The notes under the pieces are model-generated. The model was not told where the DNA came from, ran no database searches, and was given only the letters and a program-made list of their open reading frames with translations. The translations under genes were made by a program, and so were the position numbers. A DNA stretch of 8,471 nt. It comes from Chloroflexota bacterium. Its GTDB lineage: Bacteria > Chloroflexota > Anaerolineae > Anaerolineales > Villigracilaceae. How positions within the stretch are numbered: position 1 is the first letter of the stretch; each line of letters starts with the position of its first letter. Of the stretch, positions 1 to 8,471 are shown one piece after another. The stretch covers positions 1-8,471 of the forward strand of contig JAKANW010000090.1 of NCBI GenBank assembly GCA_021823555.1, written 5' to 3'.

Positions 1-121
1 CGGCCGGCGGCGCGGCCGTAGCGGACGCTGCGGCGGCCGGTGCCGGCCCATCGCCCGTCGCCGCGCCGCAAGCGGTGCAGACGCGATGATCGGCGGCGAG
101 CGCGGCGCCGCAAGCGGTGCA
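1..121 (-). other. Fragment encoding a zinc ribbon plus Ala/Pro-rich linker, apparently from another gene
   Basis: Read on the minus strand from 121, in a different frame from the chromate transporter, the segment is open for 40 codons. It gives CTACG, nine residues (AALAADHRV), CTACG again, then a linker of almost only Ala, Pro, Thr and Gly. Two CxxCG knuckles with this spacing are the classic small zinc ribbon found at the ends of many bacterial proteins, often followed by such a linker. The segment is 99/120 GC, against 72/120 for the next 120 bases. In this frame a stop lies a few codons upstream (140-142), so the peptide has no start of its own here. I read it as part of an unrelated high-GC gene joined to the transporter. 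The owner protein cannot be identified. Confidence 0.5.
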
Positions 122-422
122 GAACCACCACGACTCCCATCATGAGAGCAGTGGGCGGCAGGATGGAACCGAGCAGGGCTGTCAGTACACCGGGGATTCC
201 ACCCGCTGCGAAGCCCACGAACATTGCCAGTTTCAAGGCTTCGCTGCCGGGCAGTACATTCGAGAAACCTACCGCCTCCACGAATTGGGATTCGGTCATG
301 ATCGCGCCGACAGCCTCCTTATACAATAAACCGATGGAAGCAGGCCCGGAAGGCGAGAGGATATTGACCTTGAGGAACATCCACAACAGGCGCAGCCATA
401 CGGAGAACTTCGACTGGTTCAT
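1..422 (-). CDS. chrA: Short chromate transporter (CHR family), second copy; 3' part replaced by foreign sequence and open to the window edge
   Basis: This is a membrane protein of the CHR family, which exports chromate or related oxyanions. Translation from the ATG at 422 gives about 100 residues of good CHR sequence, including LSPSGPASIGLLYKEAV, NVLPGSEALKLAMFVG, GGIPGVLTALLGSILPP and LHRLRR. It matches its upstream neighbour at 62 of 94 aligned positions. Short CHR proteins are usually about 170-190 residues, and the neighbour continues after LHRLRR with a normal membrane-protein sequence. Here the frame instead becomes an Arg-rich, implausible string from about position 105 down to 1, without a stop. 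The start overlaps the upstream stop as ATGA, and no Shine-Dalgarno sequence is visible, so translation is probably coupled. The genuine part is about 105-422. The C-terminus is missing, either through a chimeric join or a real rearrangement. Confidence 0.75.
   Translation of the reverse strand, partial: MNQSKFSVWLRLLWMFLKVNILSPSGPASIGLLYKEAVGAIMTESQFVEAVGFSNVLPGSEALKLAMFVGFAAGGIPGVLTALLGSILPPTALMMGVVVVLHRLRRRARRRSSRLHRLRRGDGRWAGTGRRSVRYGRAAG
63..123. repeat. 19-base exact direct repeat (63-81 and 105-123)
   Basis: The plus-strand 19-mer gcgccgcaagcggtgcaga occurs at 63-81 and again at 105-123, 42 bases apart. On the minus strand each copy covers a CTACG zinc knuckle. The 105-123 copy is also where the chromate-transporter frame encodes LHRLRR, a motif the intact neighbouring paralogue also has. 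The repeat therefore sits exactly at the boundary between plausible transporter and unrelated sequence. Confidence 0.85.
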
Positions 423-934
423 GAAAGGAAGAATACCCCGATCAGGCCGGCAATCAAAATGATGAAACGGGCGGGCGCTTCCAGGAACATGGCAACCAGG
501 CTGACCAAACCTATGACCCAGGCCTGCCAGCCTGTTGTTCCGCCATTTTCAAATATTTTCCAGGCAGTGAAGAGCATCAACACGGAAATGGCGGGGGTGA
601 GGCCCTCAATGAAATTGCTCACCCAGACCTCCCGCCGCAGGCGATGCAGGATCAAGGTAATCCCCAGGATGATAACGGTGGGCGGCAAAATGGAAGCGAG
701 CAGCGCAACCAGTCCACCGGGGATTCCGGCTACCGCATAGCCGACGTACATCGCCAGTTGCAACGCGTCGCTGCCGGGCAAAACGGAGGAGAGGCCGACG
801 GCCTGAACGAACTGGCCTTCCGTCACCATGCCTGGCACGGCTTCGTGATACAACAGGCCAACGGACGCAGGCCCTGAGGTGCTTAAAAGATTGACTTTGA
901 TGAAAGTCCAGAAAAGTTGAAGGAGAGTATCCAT
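419..934 (-). CDS. chrA: Short chromate transporter (CHR family), first copy, intact
   Basis: A 171-residue polytopic membrane protein of the CHR family, the half-size form that normally works as a pair of separately encoded domains to export chromate or related oxyanions. The sequence shows the CHR signature region (TSGPASVGLLYHEAV at about 19-33), the VLPGS motif with a following hydrophobic helix (about 51-55), GIPGGLVALLASILPP (about 70-85) and several C-terminal hydrophobic helices ending at FFLS. The length is normal for a short CHR protein. It starts 21 bases after the elp3 stop with only a weak GGTG upstream, and its TGA overlaps the ATG of the next transporter gene, so the pair is an operon tail. 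In typical short pairs the two partners are clearly diverged; here they are close paralogues. Family call is firm; substrate (chromate, sulfate or another anion) is inferred. Confidence 0.9.
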   Translation of the reverse strand: MDTLLQLFWTFIKVNLLSTSGPASVGLLYHEAVPGMVTEGQFVQAVGLSSVLPGSDALQLAMYVGYAVAGIPGGLVALLASILPPTVIILGITLILHRLRREVWVSNFIEGLTPAISVLMLFTAWKIFENGGTTGWQAWVIGLVSLVAMFLEAPARFIILIAGLIGVFFLS

Positions 935-955
935 GACACCGTGAAGGGATATGTC

Positions 956-2584
956 TTACCGAATGGTTTTGACGAGGTAATATTCCCCGCGCTCAAAGTC
1001 ACGGTCGAGATAATACTGACGCGTACCGACGGCCGAGATAACGGCCATGCGATGAAAGCCGCGCTCGCGCGCCAGGGACTCTGCTTCTACCAGCAAACGC
1101 GTGCCTAACCCGGCATGTTGTGCTGCACCGACTTGTTCCACACCGACCGGCAGGGATTGTCCATAGACGTGCACTTCGCGGATCAGGGCCGCGCCGTCCA
1201 GGTCGCTCATGCCTGTGGAGGGAGAACCTTGACCGGGCAGGGACAAGCGAATGAAACCGGCCAACCGGTCATCGGGAGTGACGAAGGAGAGGAAATGCTC
1301 CTCGGCCGCGCCCGCCCGGTAGGCCAAATCATCGAGGTGCAGCGAATCCGGGTGGACCGCTTCGCCGCGGATTTCGCGGCAACGTACACATTGGCAACGC
1401 GTCCCGCGCCGTTTCATCTCGTCGTGCACGTCCTGGCGCAGGCTGGTGCGGCGGTTGCCCTCGACAACGTTGTTGGACGGGATGTCGCGGATGATGCGGT
1501 TGACGCGGCAATAACGCGGGATGGTCGGTTTCACATCCGCGATCAGGTCAATCAATTCCTGGGTGCTGTAGGGATGGAATTCCCCGCGCTGCCAATATTC
1601 GTACAGCTCGGCGTTGGCCAGCAGTTGGTTGGGATAGATCTTGATCTCGTCCGGGCAGAAGTCATCCCACAGGCGGACGAAATCGGCGCGGTCTGATTCG
1701 GGAGTGGCGCCCAGCAGGTTGGGCATCCAGTGCAGGACGATCTTGAACCCTGCGGCTCGGAGCAATGCGACTGCTCTGCGGGTGGTCGCCACGTCATGTC
1801 CGCGTTTGTTGATCTCAAGAATGTGGTCATCCAGGCTTTGCGCGCCCATCTGCACTTTGGTCACGCCGAGATGGCGCAGCCAGCGCAGCTCATCGGGCGT
1901 GATCTCATCCGGCCGGGTCTCGATGACCAGTCCCACGTTCCGGTGAGAGGCGGTTTCGTTCAATTTGTGAGTCTCACCTAACCCCCCGTCCCCGCGGGGA
2001 AGAGGAACTGGGGGGATGGGTGCATTCATTGCATCGAAACAGCGCTGGACGAACCATTCCTGATAGTCGCGGCGATACGATGACCAGGTGCCGCCCAAGA
2101 TGAGCAGCTCGATCTTGTCGGTGGGATGCCCAACCGAGTCCAACGATTCAAGCCGCGATTTCACCTGCGCGTACGGATCGAAGTCATGTTCGAGGCCGCG
2201 CATCGCGCCGGGTTCATCCGGCAGGTAACTCTTGGGCATACGCACGTCGGTGGGGCAGAAGATGCACTTGCCGGGGCAGGGATATGGTTTGGTCAACACC
2301 GTGACGGTGGTCACGCCGGAAAGCGTTCGCACCGGCTTCATGCGGATGCGTTCGAGCAGGGCCGGGTCTTCCGGCCAGGCGCCCGCCGCGACGATTTCCT
2401 GGTAGGCGCCCACCAGCATGGACTTGCTCAGGTAGCCGCCATGCGGCAGGGGATAACTTCGCAGGGCGCGCATCACCTCGCGGCCGCTGCGGATGTCTTC
2501 CAGCACGCGGCGGGCGAGATCGAGCTTTTCGGGTGTCAACTGCTGGCGGTCGCGCCACTGTCGCTGGCGTTCGTTCAGGGTCAT
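956..2584 (-). CDS. elp3: Elp3 family tRNA uridine-34 carboxymethyl synthase (radical SAM + GNAT acetyltransferase)
   Basis: Elp3 uses a radical-SAM cluster and acetyl-CoA to put a carboxymethyl-type group on C5 of wobble uridine 34 in tRNA. Bacteria and archaea use Elp3 alone, without the rest of Elongator. The 542 residues fit: an N-terminal tRNA-binding part; the radical-SAM CxxxCxxC (Cys103, Cys107, Cys110, in PCPGKCIFCP); GLVIETRPDE (about 218-227); QMGAQSLDD; the late Cys-rich stretch RCQCVRCREIRGEA (about 396-409); IREVHVYG (about 468-475); and the GNAT acetyl-CoA loop QHAGLGTRLL with the terminal GTRQYYLDRDF. The ATG overlaps the cysH stop as ATGA and lacks a clear Shine-Dalgarno, suggesting translational coupling. 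Residues about 188-204 (Pro/Gly-rich, PVPLPRGDGG) are encoded by a palindromic repeat absent from the usual family sequence as I remember it. Catalytic motifs look intact. Confidence 0.95.
   Translation of the reverse strand: MTLNERQRQWRDRQQLTPEKLDLARRVLEDIRSGREVMRALRSYPLPHGGYLSKSMLVGAYQEIVAAGAWPEDPALLERIRMKPVRTLSGVTTVTVLTKPYPCPGKCIFCPTDVRMPKSYLPDEPGAMRGLEHDFDPYAQVKSRLESLDSVGHPTDKIELLILGGTWSSYRRDYQEWFVQRCFDAMNAPIPPVPLPRGDGGLGETHKLNETASHRNVGLVIETRPDEITPDELRWLRHLGVTKVQMGAQSLDDHILEINKRGHDVATTRRAVALLRAAGFKIVLHWMPNLLGATPESDRADFVRLWDDFCPDEIKIYPNQLLANAELYEYWQRGEFHPYSTQELIDLIADVKPTIPRYCRVNRIIRDIPSNNVVEGNRRTSLRQDVHDEMKRRGTRCQCVRCREIRGEAVHPDSLHLDDLAYRAGAAEEHFLSFVTPDDRLAGFIRLSLPGQGSPSTGMSDLDGAALIREVHVYGQSLPVGVEQVGAAQHAGLGTRLLVEAESLARERGFHRMAVISAVGTRQYYLDRDFERGEYYLVKTIR
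1975..2022. repeat. 48-base palindromic repeat inserted in frame within elp3
   Basis: Nested inverted repeats: a perfect 12-base palindrome tccccgcgggga at 1989-2000; six C (1982-1987) facing six G (2010-2015); and outer arms at 1975-1986 and 2011-2022 pairing at 10 of 12 positions. The segment is 48 bases, exactly 16 codons, and encodes Pro/Gly-rich residues about 188-204 of Elp3. It resembles REP-like interspersed palindromes common in Chloroflexota and cyanobacteria. No target duplication is visible. Confidence 0.7.
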
Positions 2585-3339
2585 TTGGTCAGCCCGTTCA
2601 ATTCAGGGTGGATCACAAAATCAGCCTGCGCTTCCGATAAACCTTTTTCAAACATACGGGTATGCAGACCGCATTCCGTCTTGCCGCGGCCGGCCCAGCG
2701 ACCAGCGCGCTCGTCCTGGTCCGCGCCGGCGGCGATCGTGCAGGGCGCGCAGCCCACGCTGCGATAACCTTTTTCGTAAAGCGGATGGGCAGGCAGGTTG
2801 TGTTCTTGGATATAAGCCTGCACATCCTGCTTCGTCCAATTCAGCAGCGGGTTGATCTTGAGCAGGCCATCCTTTTGCAATTCCAGGATTTTTGCGCCTG
2901 CCCGTTCGGGCGTCTGGTCGCGGCGGATGCCGCTGATCCAGGCTTTGACCTCGCGCATGGCTTTTTGCATGGGCATCACTTTATGGATGTAACAACACAG
3001 GTCGGGGTCTTCGAGCGGCAGGGTGCGCACGCGCTGGCGCACGAACACATCCCAGCGCGAGTCTCGGTACAGGTCCACCACGTTCAGCATCAATTTGTGA
3101 GCAATCTCCTCCCGGAACATCAACGATTCCCAGAAGTGATAGCCCGTGTCCAGGTAAAAGATAGGCAGGGCGCGCTGGATCTGGATCGCCATGTGCAGCA
3201 GCGGCATACTCTGCGTCTGGAACGAGGAACTCAGGGCGATCTCGGGCCAAAAGGTCTCCACCGCCCAGGTGATGATCTCCTGCGGCGTTTTGCGCTCGAA
3301 TTCCTGCGAAAATCGCTCGATTTCAGCGGCTGAAAGCAT
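2581..3339 (-). CDS. cysH: Phosphoadenylyl/adenylyl-sulfate reductase (CysH)
   Basis: CysH reduces activated sulfate (APS or PAPS) to sulfite in the cytoplasm, with thioredoxin or glutaredoxin as electron donor, during sulfate assimilation. The 252 residues are full length. Visible motifs are the nucleotide-binding region ALSSSFQTQSMPLLH (about 35-49), FYLDTGYHFWESL (about 61-73), WISGIRRDQTPERA (about 134-147), Cys115-Cys116, GYRSVGCAPCT (Cys197 and Cys200) and the catalytic tail ECGLH (Cys223). The CC...CxxC set ligates a [4Fe-4S] cluster in the APS-type enzymes, so APS is the more likely substrate. The ATG lies six bases from a perfect minus-strand TATAAT with no Shine-Dalgarno, suggesting a leaderless message. 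It heads the run cysH-elp3-chrA1-chrA2 and overlaps elp3 by four bases. A thiolation enzyme is a weaker alternative, because ECGLH is the reductase hallmark. Confidence 0.93.
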   Translation of the reverse strand: MLSAAEIERFSQEFERKTPQEIITWAVETFWPEIALSSSFQTQSMPLLHMAIQIQRALPIFYLDTGYHFWESLMFREEIAHKLMLNVVDLYRDSRWDVFVRQRVRTLPLEDPDLCCYIHKVMPMQKAMREVKAWISGIRRDQTPERAGAKILELQKDGLLKINPLLNWTKQDVQAYIQEHNLPAHPLYEKGYRSVGCAPCTIAAGADQDERAGRWAGRGKTECGLHTRMFEKGLSEAQADFVIHPELNGLTK

Positions 3340-3368
3340 GACGGGATTATACCGTTATAATTCCGCTT
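3340..3368. promoter_or_regulatory. Symmetric divergent promoter between cysH and the methyltransferase gene
   Basis: The 29-base gap contains ATTATA-CCGT-TATAAT (3346-3361), two perfect sigma-70 type -10 boxes pointing outward from a four-base centre. The plus-strand box (3356-3361) ends seven bases before the methyltransferase ATG; the minus-strand box (3351-3346) ends six bases before the cysH ATG. Transcription would start at or next to each ATG, so both messages are probably leaderless, in keeping with the absence of ribosome-binding sites. I see no good -35 hexamer at the usual spacing on either side. Confidence 0.65.
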
Positions 3369-4094
3369 ATGGATTCGGCCACCGCCTCCCGCCTGGTTGC
3401 CCTAAACCGCGAATTTTACGATCAGTTTGGCGCGTCCTTTTCGGCCACGCGCGAACGATCGCAGCCCGGCGTATTGCGGATTCTGAGAACCCTGCGCGGC
3501 GATGAGGCGATCCTTGACCTGGGATGCGGCAACGGGGAACTGGCACGCGAACTGGCGCGGCGCAGCCACCGCGGCCCGTATCTTGGCCTGGACTTCAGCC
3601 TGCCTCTGCTCCGAGCGGCCGAATCGCAGCCCGAAGGATTCTCGGCCACCTTTCGCGTCGTGGACTTGACTCAGTTATCAGTCATCAGTGACCAGTTATC
3701 AGTGACTGAACACTGGTCACTGATAATTGCTTTCGCTGTCCTGCATCACATCCCTGGCGAAGAACTACGCTTGAATTTGTTGAATACAGTTTCTGCCCTG
3801 CTTCCCGATGATGGACGCTTCATCCTTTCGAACTGGCAGTTCCTCAACAGCCCGCGGCTCAAGGCGCGCATCCAACCCTGGGACAGGATCGGTTTGAAGG
3901 ACTCCGACGTGGACGCGGGCGACTACCTGCTCGATTGGCGCCGCGATGGACGGGGCTTGCGTTACGTGCATCACTTCTCAGTGGAGGAATTGTCCGGGTT
4001 GGCCGGGCAGGTTGGGCTGCGCGTGAGCGAGTCGTTTGAGTCCGATGGGGATGGAGGAAAGCTTGGCTTGTATCAGGTTTGGAGAAAACTTTAA
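3369..4094 (+). CDS. Class I SAM-dependent methyltransferase, Trm9/ALKBH8-like (putative tRNA U34 carboxymethyl methyltransferase)
   Basis: A 241-residue cytoplasmic methyltransferase. Motif I is ILDLGCGNGE (about 48-57), followed by YLGLDFS (about 71-77) and AVLHHIPGEEL (about 123-133). The pattern recalls eukaryotic Trm9, which turns cm5U34 into mcm5U34: the start NREFYDQFGASFSATR resembles Trm9's VYNEIAPHFSQTR, and the C-terminal LRYVHHFSVEEL resembles YRYYHLYREGEL. I compare these from memory. Its divergent neighbour is elp3's operon, which makes the Trm9 substrate, so genomic context supports the role. Residues about 101-119 (LSVISDQLSV) come from an inserted palindromic repeat in a loop where family members vary. 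The ATG directly follows a TATAAT box, so the message is likely leaderless. Methyltransferase class is firm; the tRNA substrate is inferred. Confidence 0.85.
   Translation: MDSATASRLVALNREFYDQFGASFSATRERSQPGVLRILRTLRGDEAILDLGCGNGELARELARRSHRGPYLGLDFSLPLLRAAESQPEGFSATFRVVDLTQLSVISDQLSVTEHWSLIIAFAVLHHIPGEELRLNLLNTVSALLPDDGRFILSNWQFLNSPRLKARIQPWDRIGLKDSDVDAGDYLLDWRRDGRGLRYVHHFSVEELSGLAGQVGLRVSESFESDGDGGKLGLYQVWRKL
3668..3727. repeat. Interspersed palindromic repeat (ttatcagt type) inserted in frame in the methyltransferase gene
   Basis: The 13-mer atcagtgaccagt at 3684-3696 is matched by its exact reverse complement at 3712-3724, and ttatcagtga (3696-3705) by tcactgataa (3717-3726). The 11-mer cagttatcagt is directly repeated at 3672-3682 and 3693-3703, a 21-base step that yields QLSV twice in the protein. 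Repeats of this cagttatcagt type are widespread intergenic elements in several bacterial phyla and give the recurrent low-value peptide LSVISDQLSV when translated. Confidence 0.75.
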
Positions 4095-4116
4095 CGGAAA
4101 ATCCGCAGGGTTGTAA

Positions 4117-6585
4117 TTAAGTACTCACAGCCACTTGATTGCGCCCCTTGTGTTTGGCGATGTACATGGCTTGATCGGCTCTTGCTATTAATGTTTCAAA
4201 ATTGGGCGTGTTCTCGTCCTTCTTCGCTACCCCCAAACTGGCTGTTATATTCAATAATAATTTTTTATCGGGAATTGGAACTGGTTCAGATATTTTATTT
4301 CGTAGCCGCTCAGCTATTCGTAAAGCCATATCCAGTGCGGTTTCAGGCAGAAGAATGATGAACTCCTCGCCGCCATACCGTCCCACCAGGTCAATTTCTC
4401 GCACGGAAGTCTGGCACCGCCTCGCACATTCTGTGAGAATTCGATCACCCACTGAATGACCATAGGTATCATTGATTTGTTTGAAATGATCCAGGTCCAG
4501 CATGATACAGGAGAAAGAGCGCTGGAGTCGGGCCGAGCGTCCAAACTCGATTTTGCCCAACTGGAACAGGCTTCGACGGTTGTGCAGGTTGGTGAGGGGG
4601 TCAGTGATGGCCAGGCTTTGAACCTCCTGAAAGAGGCGTGCATTCTCCAGGGTAATCCCCACTTGTTTGGCGAAAGTGGATAGGATTGGCAGATCTTCCT
4701 TTTCCAAATTTTCTCCCCACAGCCAGAGAGCCGCCAACAACCGTTCCTCGAACACCAGCGGTAAATGGAAAAGCCGGGTCTGGGTCTCGACGTTAACGAT
4801 CTGGAGGAGTTTTGACGATATTCCCTTTAACTTGCTCGGAAACAAAATGTCTAACCTGTCCAAAGGGGTAGATATGATTGACGGCGTCGTGAGATTTTTG
4901 GCATTCAACAGGGTTTTTATGCTCTCGGCTGGGAACGAGAAAGAAGTGATCGGAAAACCCAGGTATTCTCTTAACTGCTCGGTGTGTTTTTTGGAGAGCA
5001 GGGTGTAATCCACGACAAATTCGTCTTTGCGTGGAATGTAAAATGCCAGGATGCTGATTATATTGAGTTTTTGGAATTCTTCTCCCAGCGTCTTAATTAC
5101 GTCGCTTACATTGGGCGTTTTCTCGATCTGGGTTGTGATATGGGCGAGAATACGGGTCAATTCATTGGAATGGGCCAGTTGGCTGAGCCATCGTCGCTCG
5201 GCTTCGGCTCTGCGAAGGTGTTCGATGGCAGTCGCCATTTGGCCAGCCAGCGTGATCAGCAAACGTTCGTCATCAATGGTGAAAGCATCGTTTTGAGCGC
5301 TTTCGGCGTTGATGACGCCCAATACATGTTCCCGTAATTTGATGGGTACACAGATCTCTGAATGGATGCGATCATCAACATTGATATAGTTTTGGATCTG
5401 GCGGACGTTGCCAATACGTTGTGATTGGCCTGTCCTGGCCACTTCTCCTGTGATGCCCTGGCCGAGGGATATATCAATCGTTTTCAACCTTTCGCGGTCA
5501 TTAAAACGATAGGATGGGTATGAGCGCAGGGTGTTATTTGTTTCATCGAGCATTAGGACGCCGAAATTATCAGGGAACAGGTTCTGCCCGATGATCTCTG
5601 TGACACGCTCGATCAATTCTTCCTCAGTTTCTGCCTCGGTCGAAGCGAGGGCCACTTCGTGCAGAGCGGTCAGCCGTTTCACCTGTTTATAGGCATCCTC
5701 GAGATACCGAACCTTCGTGAGAGCCAGGGCGATTTGCTGGGCAGCCATATTGGCGCGCTCGATCTGGCTCTGATCAAATTGGCGCACCTCGTTGTATCCC
5801 AGATAGAGGATTGCCAGTTTGCGACTCTGAATTGTAAGCGGCAGGCCAAGAATGGAACGGCTTGGAAAAAGATTGGCGATTTTTGGATTGATGTAAGGGG
5901 AGTTTTTTATATCCGGAAAGACCATGGGCTGCCCAGACTCAATCAAAGTAGATGCCAGGGTCTTTTCGCCTGCCTCGTATCTCAAGGATGGATAAATGTC
6001 GTCCATGGAGCCGTACGCGGCTGCGGGGAGAGGCACCTTGTTCACGTCATCCCAAAACGAGAAGAAACAGTCATCTGCTTCGAACAATTCCCCGATCTGC
6101 TTCACGAGCACTGCAAGCGCCGAGTCGAGGTTGTCTGCCTCAAGGGCCGTCCGCGTGATTTTGTTGAGCGTTTCCATGAAGGTGATGTACGTCTGACGCT
6201 CTATTTCCGTTTTTTTCAATCTTGAAATAACGTCAGCTCGTTCCCGATCCACTTCCCCCAATTTGCCCACGACCCACCCAACGATGATGAGCGCCAAGCC
6301 GCCCATGGCAGCGTCTGGATTAACGATCTGATTAGAAAGCGAATAACCCAGAAGCGCAGTAAGGATCACGGTCATGAGAAACGCAAGAACCCCCGATATC
6401 AAACCGTTCTTTGCGCCCAGGTACCAGCCTGAAACAGCCACGGGGACAACGGCCAGGGCGGCGATCCCCGTGCCCATGCGGTTATGCAGCAAAATGAGCG
6501 ACAGTGCATATATCGCATATACAGTGAAAACAACGATGCGGACCGTAGCTTTTGAGCTTGGGTAAAAGATACCTTGAAGGTCCAT
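4117..6585 (-). CDS. Membrane-anchored multi-GAF diguanylate cyclase (GGDEF)
   Basis: An 822-residue signalling protein predicted to make c-di-GMP from two GTP. About four membrane segments lie within residues 15-108, then a short coiled linker (about 111-140). GAF-like domains follow at about 145-290, 315-457 and 480-650, the third being the most divergent. The GGDEF domain is at about 656-820, starting with the usual TDPLTNLHNRR. Active-site features are present: LDLDHFKQINDTYGH with Asp697 and Asp706, and the signature GGEEF (738-742). An RxxD inhibitory site (Arg729-Asp732) sits the canonical five residues upstream, so product inhibition is likely retained. No EAL domain follows. The gene is more AT-rich than its neighbours, e.g. 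26/60 GC at 4201-4260. No strong Shine-Dalgarno is seen. A TACAAT (6611-6606) and a palindrome (6633-6649) upstream may form its promoter and operator. GAF ligands are unknown. Confidence 0.93.
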   Translation of the reverse strand: MDLQGIFYPSSKATVRIVVFTVYAIYALSLILLHNRMGTGIAALAVVPVAVSGWYLGAKNGLISGVLAFLMTVILTALLGYSLSNQIVNPDAAMGGLALIIVGWVVGKLGEVDRERADVISRLKKTEIERQTYITFMETLNKITRTALEADNLDSALAVLVKQIGELFEADDCFFSFWDDVNKVPLPAAAYGSMDDIYPSLRYEAGEKTLASTLIESGQPMVFPDIKNSPYINPKIANLFPSRSILGLPLTIQSRKLAILYLGYNEVRQFDQSQIERANMAAQQIALALTKVRYLEDAYKQVKRLTALHEVALASTEAETEEELIERVTEIIGQNLFPDNFGVLMLDETNNTLRSYPSYRFNDRERLKTIDISLGQGITGEVARTGQSQRIGNVRQIQNYINVDDRIHSEICVPIKLREHVLGVINAESAQNDAFTIDDERLLITLAGQMATAIEHLRRAEAERRWLSQLAHSNELTRILAHITTQIEKTPNVSDVIKTLGEEFQKLNIISILAFYIPRKDEFVVDYTLLSKKHTEQLREYLGFPITSFSFPAESIKTLLNAKNLTTPSIISTPLDRLDILFPSKLKGISSKLLQIVNVETQTRLFHLPLVFEERLLAALWLWGENLEKEDLPILSTFAKQVGITLENARLFQEVQSLAITDPLTNLHNRRSLFQLGKIEFGRSARLQRSFSCIMLDLDHFKQINDTYGHSVGDRILTECARRCQTSVREIDLVGRYGGEEFIILLPETALDMALRIAERLRNKISEPVPIPDKKLLLNITASLGVAKKDENTPNFETLIARADQAMYIAKHKGRNQVAVST

Positions 6586-6663
6586 AAGTTTTATCTTTAC
6601 CGCTAATTGTATATCTTCATACGATACTTTGGGTTTGCAGCTTGCAAACAGTGCTTTATCGCT
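6586..6663 (-). promoter_or_regulatory. Probable promoter region of the GGDEF gene
   Basis: This is the space between the GGDEF start and the mobile element. It holds a minus-strand TACAAT (6611-6606, one mismatch to the -10 consensus), 20 bases before the ATG. No -35 hexamer is recognisable at 17-base spacing; that position (6629-6634) is instead partly covered by a palindrome at 6633-6649. Confidence 0.3.
6633..6649. promoter_or_regulatory. Operator-like perfect palindrome GTTTGCA-gct-TGCAAAC
   Basis: Seven-base arms GTTTGCA (6633-6639) and TGCAAAC (6643-6649) are exact reverse complements around a three-base centre. The site begins 48 bases upstream of the GGDEF start and just upstream of its candidate -10 box. 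It has the size and symmetry of a dimeric transcription factor site. It is followed by no T-run and has only a three-base loop, so it is not a good terminator. Confidence 0.4.
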
Positions 6664-6885
6664 ATTTTTTATTCTCTACCGTACATCCCATAAATTTGTG
6701 TCATTGCGAGCCGCCGCTCGCCTGCCCCGATGTACTTGCGGGGTGCTCTTCCCTGGCACCGCCCGCCAGGGCAGGTGTGGCGGCGTGGCAATCCCCTTTT
6801 GACAGGGAAAACTTTTTATCAAACAGGGGCTTGCTTCGGGGAAAACGCCCTCGCAAAGACATTTGTACGGTAGGGAAATTTTTTA
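6664..6885. mobile_element. MITE-like non-autonomous element with 14-base terminal inverted repeats and 8-base target duplication
   Basis: The element body is 6672-6877 (206 bases). Its ends, TTCTCTACCGTACA (6672-6685) and TGTACGGTAGGGAA (6864-6877), are inverted repeats matching at 13 of 14 positions. Both are flanked directly by ATTTTTTA (6664-6671 and 6878-6885), which is not self-complementary and so is a true direct repeat, as expected of a target duplication. A second inner pair, TGTCATTGCGAG (6699-6710) and CTCGCAAAGACA (6850-6861), matches at 11 of 12. Smaller hairpins lie inside (6721-6727 with 6769-6775; 6751-6757 with 6765-6771). There is no credible reading frame inside, so any transposase would act in trans. 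It ends 13 bases short of the stop codon of the next gene. Confidence 0.75.
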
Positions 6886-6898
6886 TGGCAAGCTGACC

Positions 6899-7906
6899 TC
6901 AAGGTGTGGGCTGGTTTGGATTGATGATGTACTGCCACCAATTGTTATGGATGGCGTTTTTGCGCCCGGCTACGCGCGGCAGATGATTGAGCCACCATTG
7001 ATGGTGAGCGCGGGTGTCGCCGCTGCCCCATTCGGCCGCGTTCACGTCGCGGATGTCGCCTTTGAAGTTGGGAAAGTTATTCAGCCAGTCGTAGCATTCG
7101 CTTTTCACGTAGGCGGAATTGTCCCATTCGTAATCGCGTGTGCTGTTCGGGGCGAAATGTACTGTGCCAATGGCGGCCCTGCCCGGAGCGATCTGTTCAT
7201 AGCGCGTATACCGGCTCCACAGGTTGGCGTCGTTGGAAAGTTTTGCAAAGGTCTTGTCCATGATCGATTCGGCGCGATGGCAGAAGGCTTCCAGCGCCTC
7301 GCCGATGTAGCGCTCCAGTGAAAATCCCATGATGATGAAACGACGCTGGCTGGCATCCGTGTTCTTGAGCGCCGGGGCATTGCACCAGAAAGCCCCCGGC
7401 CCGGCCATGACCGATTCGTAGAACCCGGCGTTCGGAAAATTAAAGATCCACACCTCGTCAATCTCGTTTTTTGCCACGCGCTCCAGGATTTTGAAACGCG
7501 TCAGGATGGGCATGTAATCCACTTCCTGAGGCATGTGTGGGGGAGTGCCGCCGCGCATCACCTCCGTATAGCCCTCTGGAGTGTAGACAAAGCCATCTGT
7601 TTTGGCGGGGAATTCGTTGATGTCAATGCGCTGGGCGATCTGGTAGCGTGCCATGCCCCCACTGTTCTTCAGGATGTCGGCCATGAAGCCGGTCGCGATA
7701 TCTTCCACGCGGTACCAGTTCTGTTGCTGGGATAGTTTCTGGCCGATGGCCAGGTCCATGACCGGGTCATAGACCAGCACCAGCACACGGCAGGTGGTGA
7801 TCTGCGCGGGTTCGGTTGCGTTATCCGGTGGGTAAACAGGCCCGGGCGGCGATGCCGGTTTTTTCCTGCCGAACAAAGCGGACAAGGACGCAAGCAGGTT
7901 GTTCAT
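6899..7906 (-). CDS. Conserved protein of unknown function, 335 residues
   Basis: I do not know a function for this protein. The N-terminus is a short hydrophobic stretch ending in GRKK, then a Pro-rich linker to about residue 32, with no convincing cleavable signal peptide. The globular part starts with RVLVLVYDPVMD (about 40-51). The strongest block is DEVWIFNFPNAGFYESVMAGPG followed by AFWCNAP (about 150-178), then RRFIIMGFSLERYIGEALEAF and CHRAES (about 188-214). Later blocks are GTVHFAPN (about 247-254) and TRAHHQWWLNHLP (about 298-310). I recall similar blocks in uncharacterised proteins from Chloroflexota, actinobacteria and fungi. Cys175, His210, Glu213, His250, His301 and His302 are possible metal or catalytic residues, but this is speculation. 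The start is supported by a good Shine-Dalgarno, AAGGAG (7919-7914), seven bases upstream. That site overlaps the stop of the preceding gene, 11 bases away, so the two are co-transcribed. Confidence 0.85.
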   Translation of the reverse strand: MNNLLASLSALFGRKKPASPPGPVYPPDNATEPAQITTCRVLVLVYDPVMDLAIGQKLSQQQNWYRVEDIATGFMADILKNSGGMARYQIAQRIDINEFPAKTDGFVYTPEGYTEVMRGGTPPHMPQEVDYMPILTRFKILERVAKNEIDEVWIFNFPNAGFYESVMAGPGAFWCNAPALKNTDASQRRFIIMGFSLERYIGEALEAFCHRAESIMDKTFAKLSNDANLWSRYTRYEQIAPGRAAIGTVHFAPNSTRDYEWDNSAYVKSECYDWLNNFPNFKGDIRDVNAAEWGSGDTRAHHQWWLNHLPRVAGRKNAIHNNWWQYIINPNQPTP

Positions 7907-7913
7907 CGCTCCA

Positions 7914-7919
7914 CTCCTT
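7914..7919 (-). promoter_or_regulatory. Ribosome-binding site AAGGAG overlapping the upstream stop codon
   Basis: The minus strand reads TAAGGAG: the TAA stop of the upstream gene (7920-7918) shares two bases with the AAGGAG that serves the 335-residue protein, seven bases before its ATG. It is the clearest Shine-Dalgarno in the window and fixes that start. Termination and re-initiation are likely coupled. Confidence 0.7.
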
Positions 7920-8471
7920 ACGGCATGTTGGTCGCAAAATACACCTGGTCTTTGACCGCCAGGTATAAGACGTGATTCGTCCCGGCCGCGATCGCGCCAA
8001 CAGGACTGGATGGCAGAGGGTTGCCGCTTCCGATTGCCGGGCGGAACTGGTTCTGCAATTGGAGCGAGCTGGGGGTCAGGCGCAGAACGTTTTGGCTGTC
8101 TGCGTCCAGCAGCAGAATGGCAGAATCAGGCGGGGGCGTGAAGAGCATTTGAGTCAGGTGAGTCTGGGCAAACAGGTCGGTATCTTTATATGCCGGGAAA
8201 GGATTGACCAACGGGCTCGGGTCCTGGCAGCGTGTCGGTTTGGATTCGATATGGCTGTAGGAGCAGGTGGAGATATGTCCATCGGCGTGGAGCATATACA
8301 GGTCATCGCCAGAAATGATAAAGTCAATTACATCCTGCTTTTCATGGGTTTGCCCGCCAAAGAAAAAATAGGGCCGATCAATGAATGCGCCGTCTTTGCC
8401 GTTATACACCCAAAGAGCCCGCGCAAGCGAATCCAGCACATAGAGGTTGCCGTTGTCCAATGCTATTGCAG
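7918..8471 (-). CDS. C-terminal part of a beta-propeller-like protein, 5' end outside the window
   Basis: The frame is open to the right edge (last codons seen read AIA before LDNGNLYVLDS), so the start is missing; the codon at 8460-8458 is TTG inside the gene, not a start. About 184 residues are visible. Repeated strand-like units, NGNLYVLDSLARALWVY, DDLYMLHADGHISTCSY, AILLLDADSQNVLRL and NHVLYLAVKDQVYFATNMP, look like NHL- or WD-type propeller blades. I associate such tails with Chloroflexota proteins whose N-terminus is a PP2C-like phosphatase, but no such domain is visible here, so this is only a suggestion. It ends 11 bases before the start of the unknown 335-residue protein, and its stop overlaps that gene's ribosome-binding site. 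Confidence 0.75.
   Translation of the reverse strand, partial: AIALDNGNLYVLDSLARALWVYNGKDGAFIDRPYFFFGGQTHEKQDVIDFIISGDDLYMLHADGHISTCSYSHIESKPTRCQDPSPLVNPFPAYKDTDLFAQTHLTQMLFTPPPDSAILLLDADSQNVLRLTPSSLQLQNQFRPAIGSGNPLPSSPVGAIAAGTNHVLYLAVKDQVYFATNMP

Follow-up and report, generated by a model that had tools for sequence, protein, structure and literature searches.

Described systems for the modification of U34

In eukaryotes the methyltransferase Trm9 (yeast), or the corresponding domain of ALKBH8 (human), acts together with Trm112 to convert 5-carboxymethyluridine at position 34 of tRNA (cm5U34) into its methyl ester, 5-methoxycarbonylmethyluridine (mcm5U34). A stand-alone Elp3 with a putative Trm9 is described for archaea (Haloferax HVO_1032, Sulfolobus), the genes being clustered in Sulfolobus (section 14 of a 2017 review, PMC5372719; our comparison with these systems is by description). 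The same section states that, for the eukaryotic methyltransferases that partner with Trm112, no relatives could be detected in bacteria. Most bacteria modify the same position, C5 of U34, with MnmE/MnmG(/MnmC), as outlined in one part of PMC7663514; this aminomethyl-type chemistry differs from the carboxymethyl chemistry of the Elp3 route. Elp3 is found in Dehalococcoides, for which section 5 of this latter review, from 2020, finds direct evidence of cm5-type U34 derivatives lacking, and a passage of PMC6367351 terms DmcElp3 a rare bacterial example. Here we analyze a stretch of 8,471 nucleotides from a Chloroflexota bacterium (assembly GCA_021823555.1, contig JAKANW010000090.1, positions 1 to 8,471 of the forward strand), called the window in the following, which carries a gene for Elp3 and, in divergent orientation, the gene for a Trm9-like methyltransferase.

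We consider it likely that the two proteins belong to one pathway, in which Elp3 would make cm5U34, the Trm9-like enzyme would convert it to mcm5U and MnmA would add sulfur, and that this set replaces MnmE/MnmG. If this is true, two enzyme sets replace each other for one base inside a single phylum. The gene pair is conserved, and the prediction of a eukaryote-type wobble pathway for a bacterial phylum is well supported. No published report of the Elp3–methyltransferase pair was found in the literature covered, which did not include bioRxiv and most subscription papers.

Elp3 and the methyltransferase of the window

The elp3 gene (positions 956-2584, minus strand) encodes an intact, full-length protein of 542 amino acids with a radical S-adenosylmethionine (SAM) and a GNAT domain, the predicted cm5U34 maker on tRNA. 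It matches the profile TIGR01211 over residues 67-540 with a score of 484.5 bits (cut-off 350), and contains the cluster motif CPGKCIFC and, in the GNAT part, QHAGLGTRL. A full Elp3 had already been proposed in the sequence-only reading of this DNA, and the profile score, the cluster motif and the GNAT stretch bear this out. The best match in the PDB, over residues 83-539, was 5l7j (ELP3 family) with an E value of 1e-110; the Elp3 of Dehalococcoides mccartyi (5l7j, 6ia6) is the nearest solved relative of the window protein. Dehalococcoides is the source of the solved bacterial Elp3 structures.

The methyltransferase gene (3369-4094, plus strand) is intact and encodes 241 amino acids with a predicted activity of cm5U34 to mcm5U34. 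Five class I Pfam models match above their cut-offs, and a structure model with a mean predicted local distance difference test (pLDDT) value of 84.5 gives class I fold matches; SAM-binding profile and fold together identify a class I SAM-dependent methyltransferase. The protein has the landmarks FSATR at residues 24-28 and LRYVHHF at 197-203. A profile of its family was built from 40 members selected among the 120 top-ranking of 5998 homologues, and R28, H126, H127, W156, R198, Y199 and H201 are invariant in all 40 aligned members. The model has strands at residues 185-189 and 197-201; placed by sequence, they may correspond to the two-stranded lid that is described for Trm9 in a part of PMC5372719. 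A search of the PDB with the single sequence resulted in generic matches, with Trm9 (5cm2) at E 0.015.

The elp3–methyltransferase pair in related genomes

The 40-member methyltransferase profile, in which Elp3 was not used, was run on the contigs of one genome per species, and the best 80 of at least 252 stretches encoding a relative were kept; these are the nearer relatives. Elp3 is encoded divergently, head-to-head with the methyltransferase, in 66 of these 80 Chloroflexota loci. The gene pair is thus conserved and real. The two genes are directly adjacent in 42 loci, with the match ends 13-285 bases apart (median 58.5), and in 24 loci they are separated, in the manner of the window, by cysH. 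Direct contact is the more common arrangement, and cysH appears to be a later insertion; it is probably specific for a lineage and would stand outside the modification pathway. No Elp3 was found in the remaining 14 loci, six of which end less than 1 kb upstream while eight retain at least 2.6 kb of upstream DNA.

In the window, cysH (2581-3339, minus strand) encodes an APS/PAPS (adenylylsulfate/phosphoadenylylsulfate) reductase, which matches NF002537 with 258.2 bits against a cut-off of 154 and has the CC, CxxC and ECGLH motifs. Its stop codon overlaps the start of elp3 by 4 bases (ATGA); the two genes hence form a cysH-elp3 unit with elp3 in the downstream position. The 29-base spacer (3340-3368), which has divergent start codons on either side, therefore lies between cysH and the methyltransferase gene. 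The sequence-only reading had taken these 29 bases for a promoter common to Elp3 and the methyltransferase, which has to be rejected. Its larger proposal of a bacterial pathway of the Elp3/Trm9 type survives the loss of the shared promoter: sequence kinship, gene co-occurrence and the exclusion of MnmE/MnmG, described below, all speak for it.

The same pair was also seen on a contig that had been assigned to a Bacteroidetes bin; the proteins have 74% (Elp3) and 57% (methyltransferase) identity to those of the window. This contig is more likely mis-binned than evidence of a transfer.

Elp3 and MnmE/MnmG exclude each other

We analyzed the distribution of the genes in a phylum sample of 131 Chloroflexota genomes, for which a completeness of at least 85 was asked, and in a class sample of 150 genomes from one class, which overlaps in part with the former. 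Phylum and class are those of the genome that contains one of the 80 loci (L071). The phylum sample contained the window-type methyltransferase in 13, Elp3 in 26, MnmE in 58 and MnmG in 57 genomes. All 13 carriers of the methyltransferase have Elp3, and none of the 26 Elp3 genomes has MnmE or MnmG. The pair is arranged head-to-head in 12 of the 13, with match ends 221-1084 bases apart; in the thirteenth genome it is on two contigs. In 46 of the 131 genomes none of Elp3, MnmE and MnmG was detected at the thresholds used.

The class sample, in which MnmE but not MnmG was scored, gave the same picture. The methyltransferase was present in 72, Elp3 in 79 (77 of them above the cut-off) and MnmE in 46 genomes; both genes of the pair occurred in 71, the methyltransferase alone in one and Elp3 alone in eight. 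MnmE was found together with neither Elp3 (0/79) nor the methyltransferase (0/72), and 25 of the 150 genomes have neither MnmE nor Elp3. Among the 71 pairs, 54 are head-to-head within about 1.1 kb of the match ends. In 15 others the two genes lie on separate contigs, one pair is far apart on a single contig and one includes a frame cut at the contig end. Because 16 of the 71 pairs are without demonstrated linkage on the assembly, gene contact alone is an insufficient explanation of the co-occurrence. Searches with three profiles, on contigs that are in some cases short, found no methyltransferase match beside Elp3 in the eight Elp3-only genomes. Fisher tests of the co-occurrence gave small p values, which were computed over related genomes; since such genomes are not independent, we give more weight to the counts. 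In the relatives Elp3 and the Trm9-like enzyme thus occur together and MnmE, as well as MnmG in the phylum sample, is absent; this was one of the checks proposed in the sequence-only reading.

Relationship of the window enzyme to Trm9

Replacement of R29, H115 or R241 cripples yeast Trm9 (PMC5372719, section 8). These residues align with R28, H126 and R198 of the window enzyme, and all 21 rows of the window family retain the equivalents of R29, H115, R241, W145, D163, W168, Y242 and H244. For comparison we used 33 control methyltransferases, best matches only, from methyltransferase searches that include one with 92 matches (38 were collected and five dropped as too long or identical). R29 was matched by 2, H115 by 13, W145 by 1 and R241 by 9 of them, and a single control had R29, H115 and R241 together. 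We also scored 47-50 Trm9-diagnostic columns, which were defined without the two bacterial families described here. The share was 17-23% in the window family, 15-23% in a second Elp3-linked family (see below) and 0-12.5% in the 33 controls, with the reservation that the members of one family are not independent data points. A profile link to Trm9, which the sequence-only reading had led one to expect, was found with hhalign: the window family aligned to fungal Trm9 with a probability of 97.5 (E 5.8e-12), and its alignment to the second family had an E value of 2.7e-16. The link is stronger via the second family, which reaches fungal Trm9 with E 3.7e-27. Among the 60 PDB matches shown for the window-family profile, only 5cm2 and 3sm3 extend to profile position 220.

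The likeness to yeast Trm9 consists of the class I fold, an N-terminal FSxTR, the HH motif, the putative two-stranded lid followed by RYxH...EL, the eight residues kept in the family and the partnership with Elp3. Unlike yeast Trm9, the window enzyme is bacterial, its gene is near that of Elp3 on the chromosome, and it has a short loop where a long insert stands in the fungal enzyme. Several further observations weigh against a close relationship. Two of the five yeast residues that were tested by mutation are replaced in all 21 rows of the window family: Y243 by V (15 rows) or A (6), and N271 by G (18), S (2) or A (1); the window enzyme has V and G and thus retains three of the five. Of the 13 genomes with the window-type gene, the fungal Trm9 profile recovered this gene in seven, six times as the first match and once as the second, and missed it at E 0.1 in the other six. 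The profile of the second family ranked several other methyltransferases above the window-type enzyme, and the window-family profile found 5cm2 only as the 15th of 80 PDB matches (E 8.3e-5). In a tree with 83 rows Trm9, the second family and the window family each formed one clade with a bootstrap of 100. Trm9 and the second family were joined weakly (81/0, with a long-branch warning); the window family stood nearby, and a clade of all three had no support. The kinship expected from the sequence-only reading is therefore compatible with the tree, in that constraining the three families together was not rejected (p-AU 0.389, approximately unbiased test), and is not demonstrated by it.

Comparison of structures was unspecific. 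Foldseek with the model of the window enzyme ranked Trm9 second, and VIA-align placed many class I enzymes above Trm9; hence the fold alone is not decisive. Because the two rankings disagree, structure was dropped as an arbiter of the kinship. The Trm9-like signatures that had been recognized in the sequence alone, FSATR and LRYVHHF, hold up together with the three key residues; with the loss of Y243 and N271 the protein is less Trm9-like than had been implied, and for this reason we call it Trm9-like and not Trm9.

The automatic names of one source, which we did not use as evidence, are tRNA (uracil-5-)-methyltransferase TRM9 for some members of both bacterial families and those of quinone-pathway methylases for other members.

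A second family of Trm9 homologues beside Elp3

A fungal Trm9 profile was made from 40 proteins, which were taken from the 120 top-scoring of 2996 matches. We used it to search the 26 genomes of the phylum sample that contain Elp3. In all 13 genomes without the window-type enzyme the top match was the gene head-to-head with elp3, with E values of 2.7e-21 to 2.4e-10 and match ends 41-259 bases from Elp3. The members of this second family carry the Trm9 landmarks, typically as RYYHLF and SRN, and all five yeast residues are kept in 17 of 17 rows, as compared with none of the 33 controls. A profile of 30 members, the one that aligned to fungal Trm9 with E 3.7e-27, ranked 5cm2 on top (E 2.8e-20) in a PDB set of 177,635 distinct sequences. 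This match spans profile positions 41-197 and runs through the lid; the runner-up, 1ve3 (E 3.7e-20), covers only the SAM-binding part up to position 137. The model of one second-type protein (P0241) has a mean pLDDT of only 70.9, and Foldseek with this model placed 5cm2 at rank 4 with the highest TMt (0.80) of 50 rows, which is weak support.

One second-type genome (G046) encodes an Elp3 that is almost the same protein as 5l7j, with a match of 976 bits that spans 458 residues. This close copy of the D. mccartyi enzyme sits head-to-head with a Trm9 homologue, which is a likeness to the window; the difference is that the adjoining methyltransferase belongs to another, more Trm9-like family. Another protein of the second type (L081) is identical to a database entry from a Dehalococcoidia bacterium, and the other 11 second-type genomes presumably belong to the same class. 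In two bacterial lineages, the neighbors of Elp3 are thus candidates for the second enzyme.

MnmA and Trm112

Of the 26 phylum-sample genomes with Elp3, 25 also have MnmA, the bacterial 2-thiolase. The exception, G052, is also without a Trm112 match and may be incomplete. Short frames of 69-127 amino acids matching Trm112p were found in 16 of the 26 genomes, namely in 12 of the 13 window-type genomes and in 4 of the 13 that have the second family. Many of these matches are weak, and several in the window-type group are near the cut-off. No short frame matched at E 0.01 in 9 of the 13 second-type genomes, including G046, whose sole Trm112p match lies in a frame of 822 amino acids. In the window itself we recognized neither a Trm112 gene nor other Elongator subunits. 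Strong short Trm112-like frames, with E values of 1.1e-11 to 9.1e-16, were seen in the second-type genomes G078, G110, G126 and G134.

Proposed pathway and alternative explanations

In the pathway that we propose Elp3 alone, by acetyl-CoA and radical SAM chemistry, would carboxymethylate U34 at C5 to give cm5U. The Trm9-like methyltransferase would then move the methyl group of SAM onto the carboxylate of cm5U and form the methyl ester mcm5U, with R28, H126 and R198 predicted to hold the anticodon uridine like R29, H115 and R241 of yeast. In the tRNAs for Lys, Glu and Gln, MnmA would add the 2-thio group and the expected end product is mcm5s2U; the Elp3/Trm9-like set would stand in for MnmE/MnmG. 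Cells with Elp3 only (8 of 79 in the class sample) may stop at cm5U or employ another enzyme. The predicted product, mcm5(s2)U, is testable on one nucleoside preparation. From the archaeal Elp3/putative Trm9 systems this one differs in that it is bacterial, has the genes head-to-head and comes with MnmA. The Escherichia coli enzyme CmoM is a carboxyl methyltransferase for cmo5U34. It would perform the same kind of reaction, formation of a methyl ester on the side-chain carboxylate of U34, on a substrate, cmo5U, unlike the predicted cm5U of the window enzyme.

A more specific version of this proposal is that Chloroflexota have a minimal mcm5(s2)U set of Elp3, a Trm9-like enzyme that would do without Trm112, as suggested in the sequence-only reading, and MnmA. 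This set would have displaced MnmE/MnmG, and the active site of the methyltransferase would have been remodeled, with replacement of two of its five key residues, while its gene stayed beside that of Elp3. We put this forward tentatively and rate its chances as somewhat below even. Compatible with the pathway as a whole would also be a Trm112-dependent holoenzyme as in yeast, with the activator encoded elsewhere in the genome. The Trm112p short frames in 12 of 13 window-type and 4 of 13 second-type genomes point in this direction; against it stand the nine second-type genomes without such a frame, the borderline quality of several window-type matches and the conservation of bacterial Trm112-like proteins, the function of which is given as unknown in section 14 of PMC5372719. 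Together, these data leave a Trm112-dependent enzyme a distinct but doubtful possibility.

It is also conceivable that the methyltransferase acts after Elp3 on the same tRNAs and catalyzes another reaction, at a different atom, on a further-modified cm5 side chain or at another position of the anticodon loop. This is unlikely in view of the RYxH of the lid strand, the HH motif and the FSxTR arginine, which are all kept at the Trm9 places. Furthermore, in the other 13 Elp3 genomes a plain Trm9 homologue has the same head-to-head place, and from the nature of this second-type gene it follows that a location next to Elp3 is associated with Trm9 chemistry. Finally, the protein could be an ordinary class I methyltransferase with a small-molecule or unknown substrate, which is merely a conserved neighbor of Elp3 in Chloroflexota. 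The fact that the Pfam and fold matches are generic, and that an NCBIfam scan gave nothing above cut-off (CpaM, BioC, UbiE and others all matched below it), is in favor of this explanation and counts against a role in the pathway. Mere neighborhood, however, does not agree with the presence of Elp3 in 71 of the 72 carriers, including the 16 pairs without demonstrated linkage, nor with the complete absence of MnmE from these 72 genomes; in addition, the share of Trm9-diagnostic columns is above that of every one of the 33 controls. We therefore regard an ordinary methyltransferase as very improbable, and maintain the Elp3/Trm9-like pathway as the likely explanation.

Other features of the window

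The sequence TATAAT at 3356-3361, read by eye, ends 7 bases 5' of the ATG of the methyltransferase gene; this placement suggests that the transcript may be near-leaderless. A scan of positions 3200-4200 for the sigma-70 consensus gave no promoter-like site. Within the methyltransferase gene (3679-3729, plus strand, approximately residues 104-121) lies a near-palindromic heptamer repeat. It is an inverted repeat with arms of 25 nucleotides that are 84% complementary, and it is in frame and reads QLSVISDQLSV. It covers the loop residues 104-111, for which the pLDDT of the model is below 50. The forward core motif of the repeat occurs in 9 of the 80 related loci, in the same gene and at about the same place; if the reverse pattern is counted as well, the number rises to 13. 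By a rough pattern at least one heptamer unit is present in 49 of 120 methyltransferase homologues, one of which has four.

All other genes of the window are on the minus strand. A chromate-transporter gene (419-934) is located next to elp3. On the side of the methyltransferase there are genes for a GAF-GGDEF protein (4117-6585) and for an unnamed protein of 335 amino acids that matched no Pfam family (6899-7906), followed by an open frame without Pfam match (7918-8460). In 36 of the 80 related loci the minus strand again encodes a relative of the 335-residue protein downstream, and 37 of the loci contain a GGDEF-protein match at some position.

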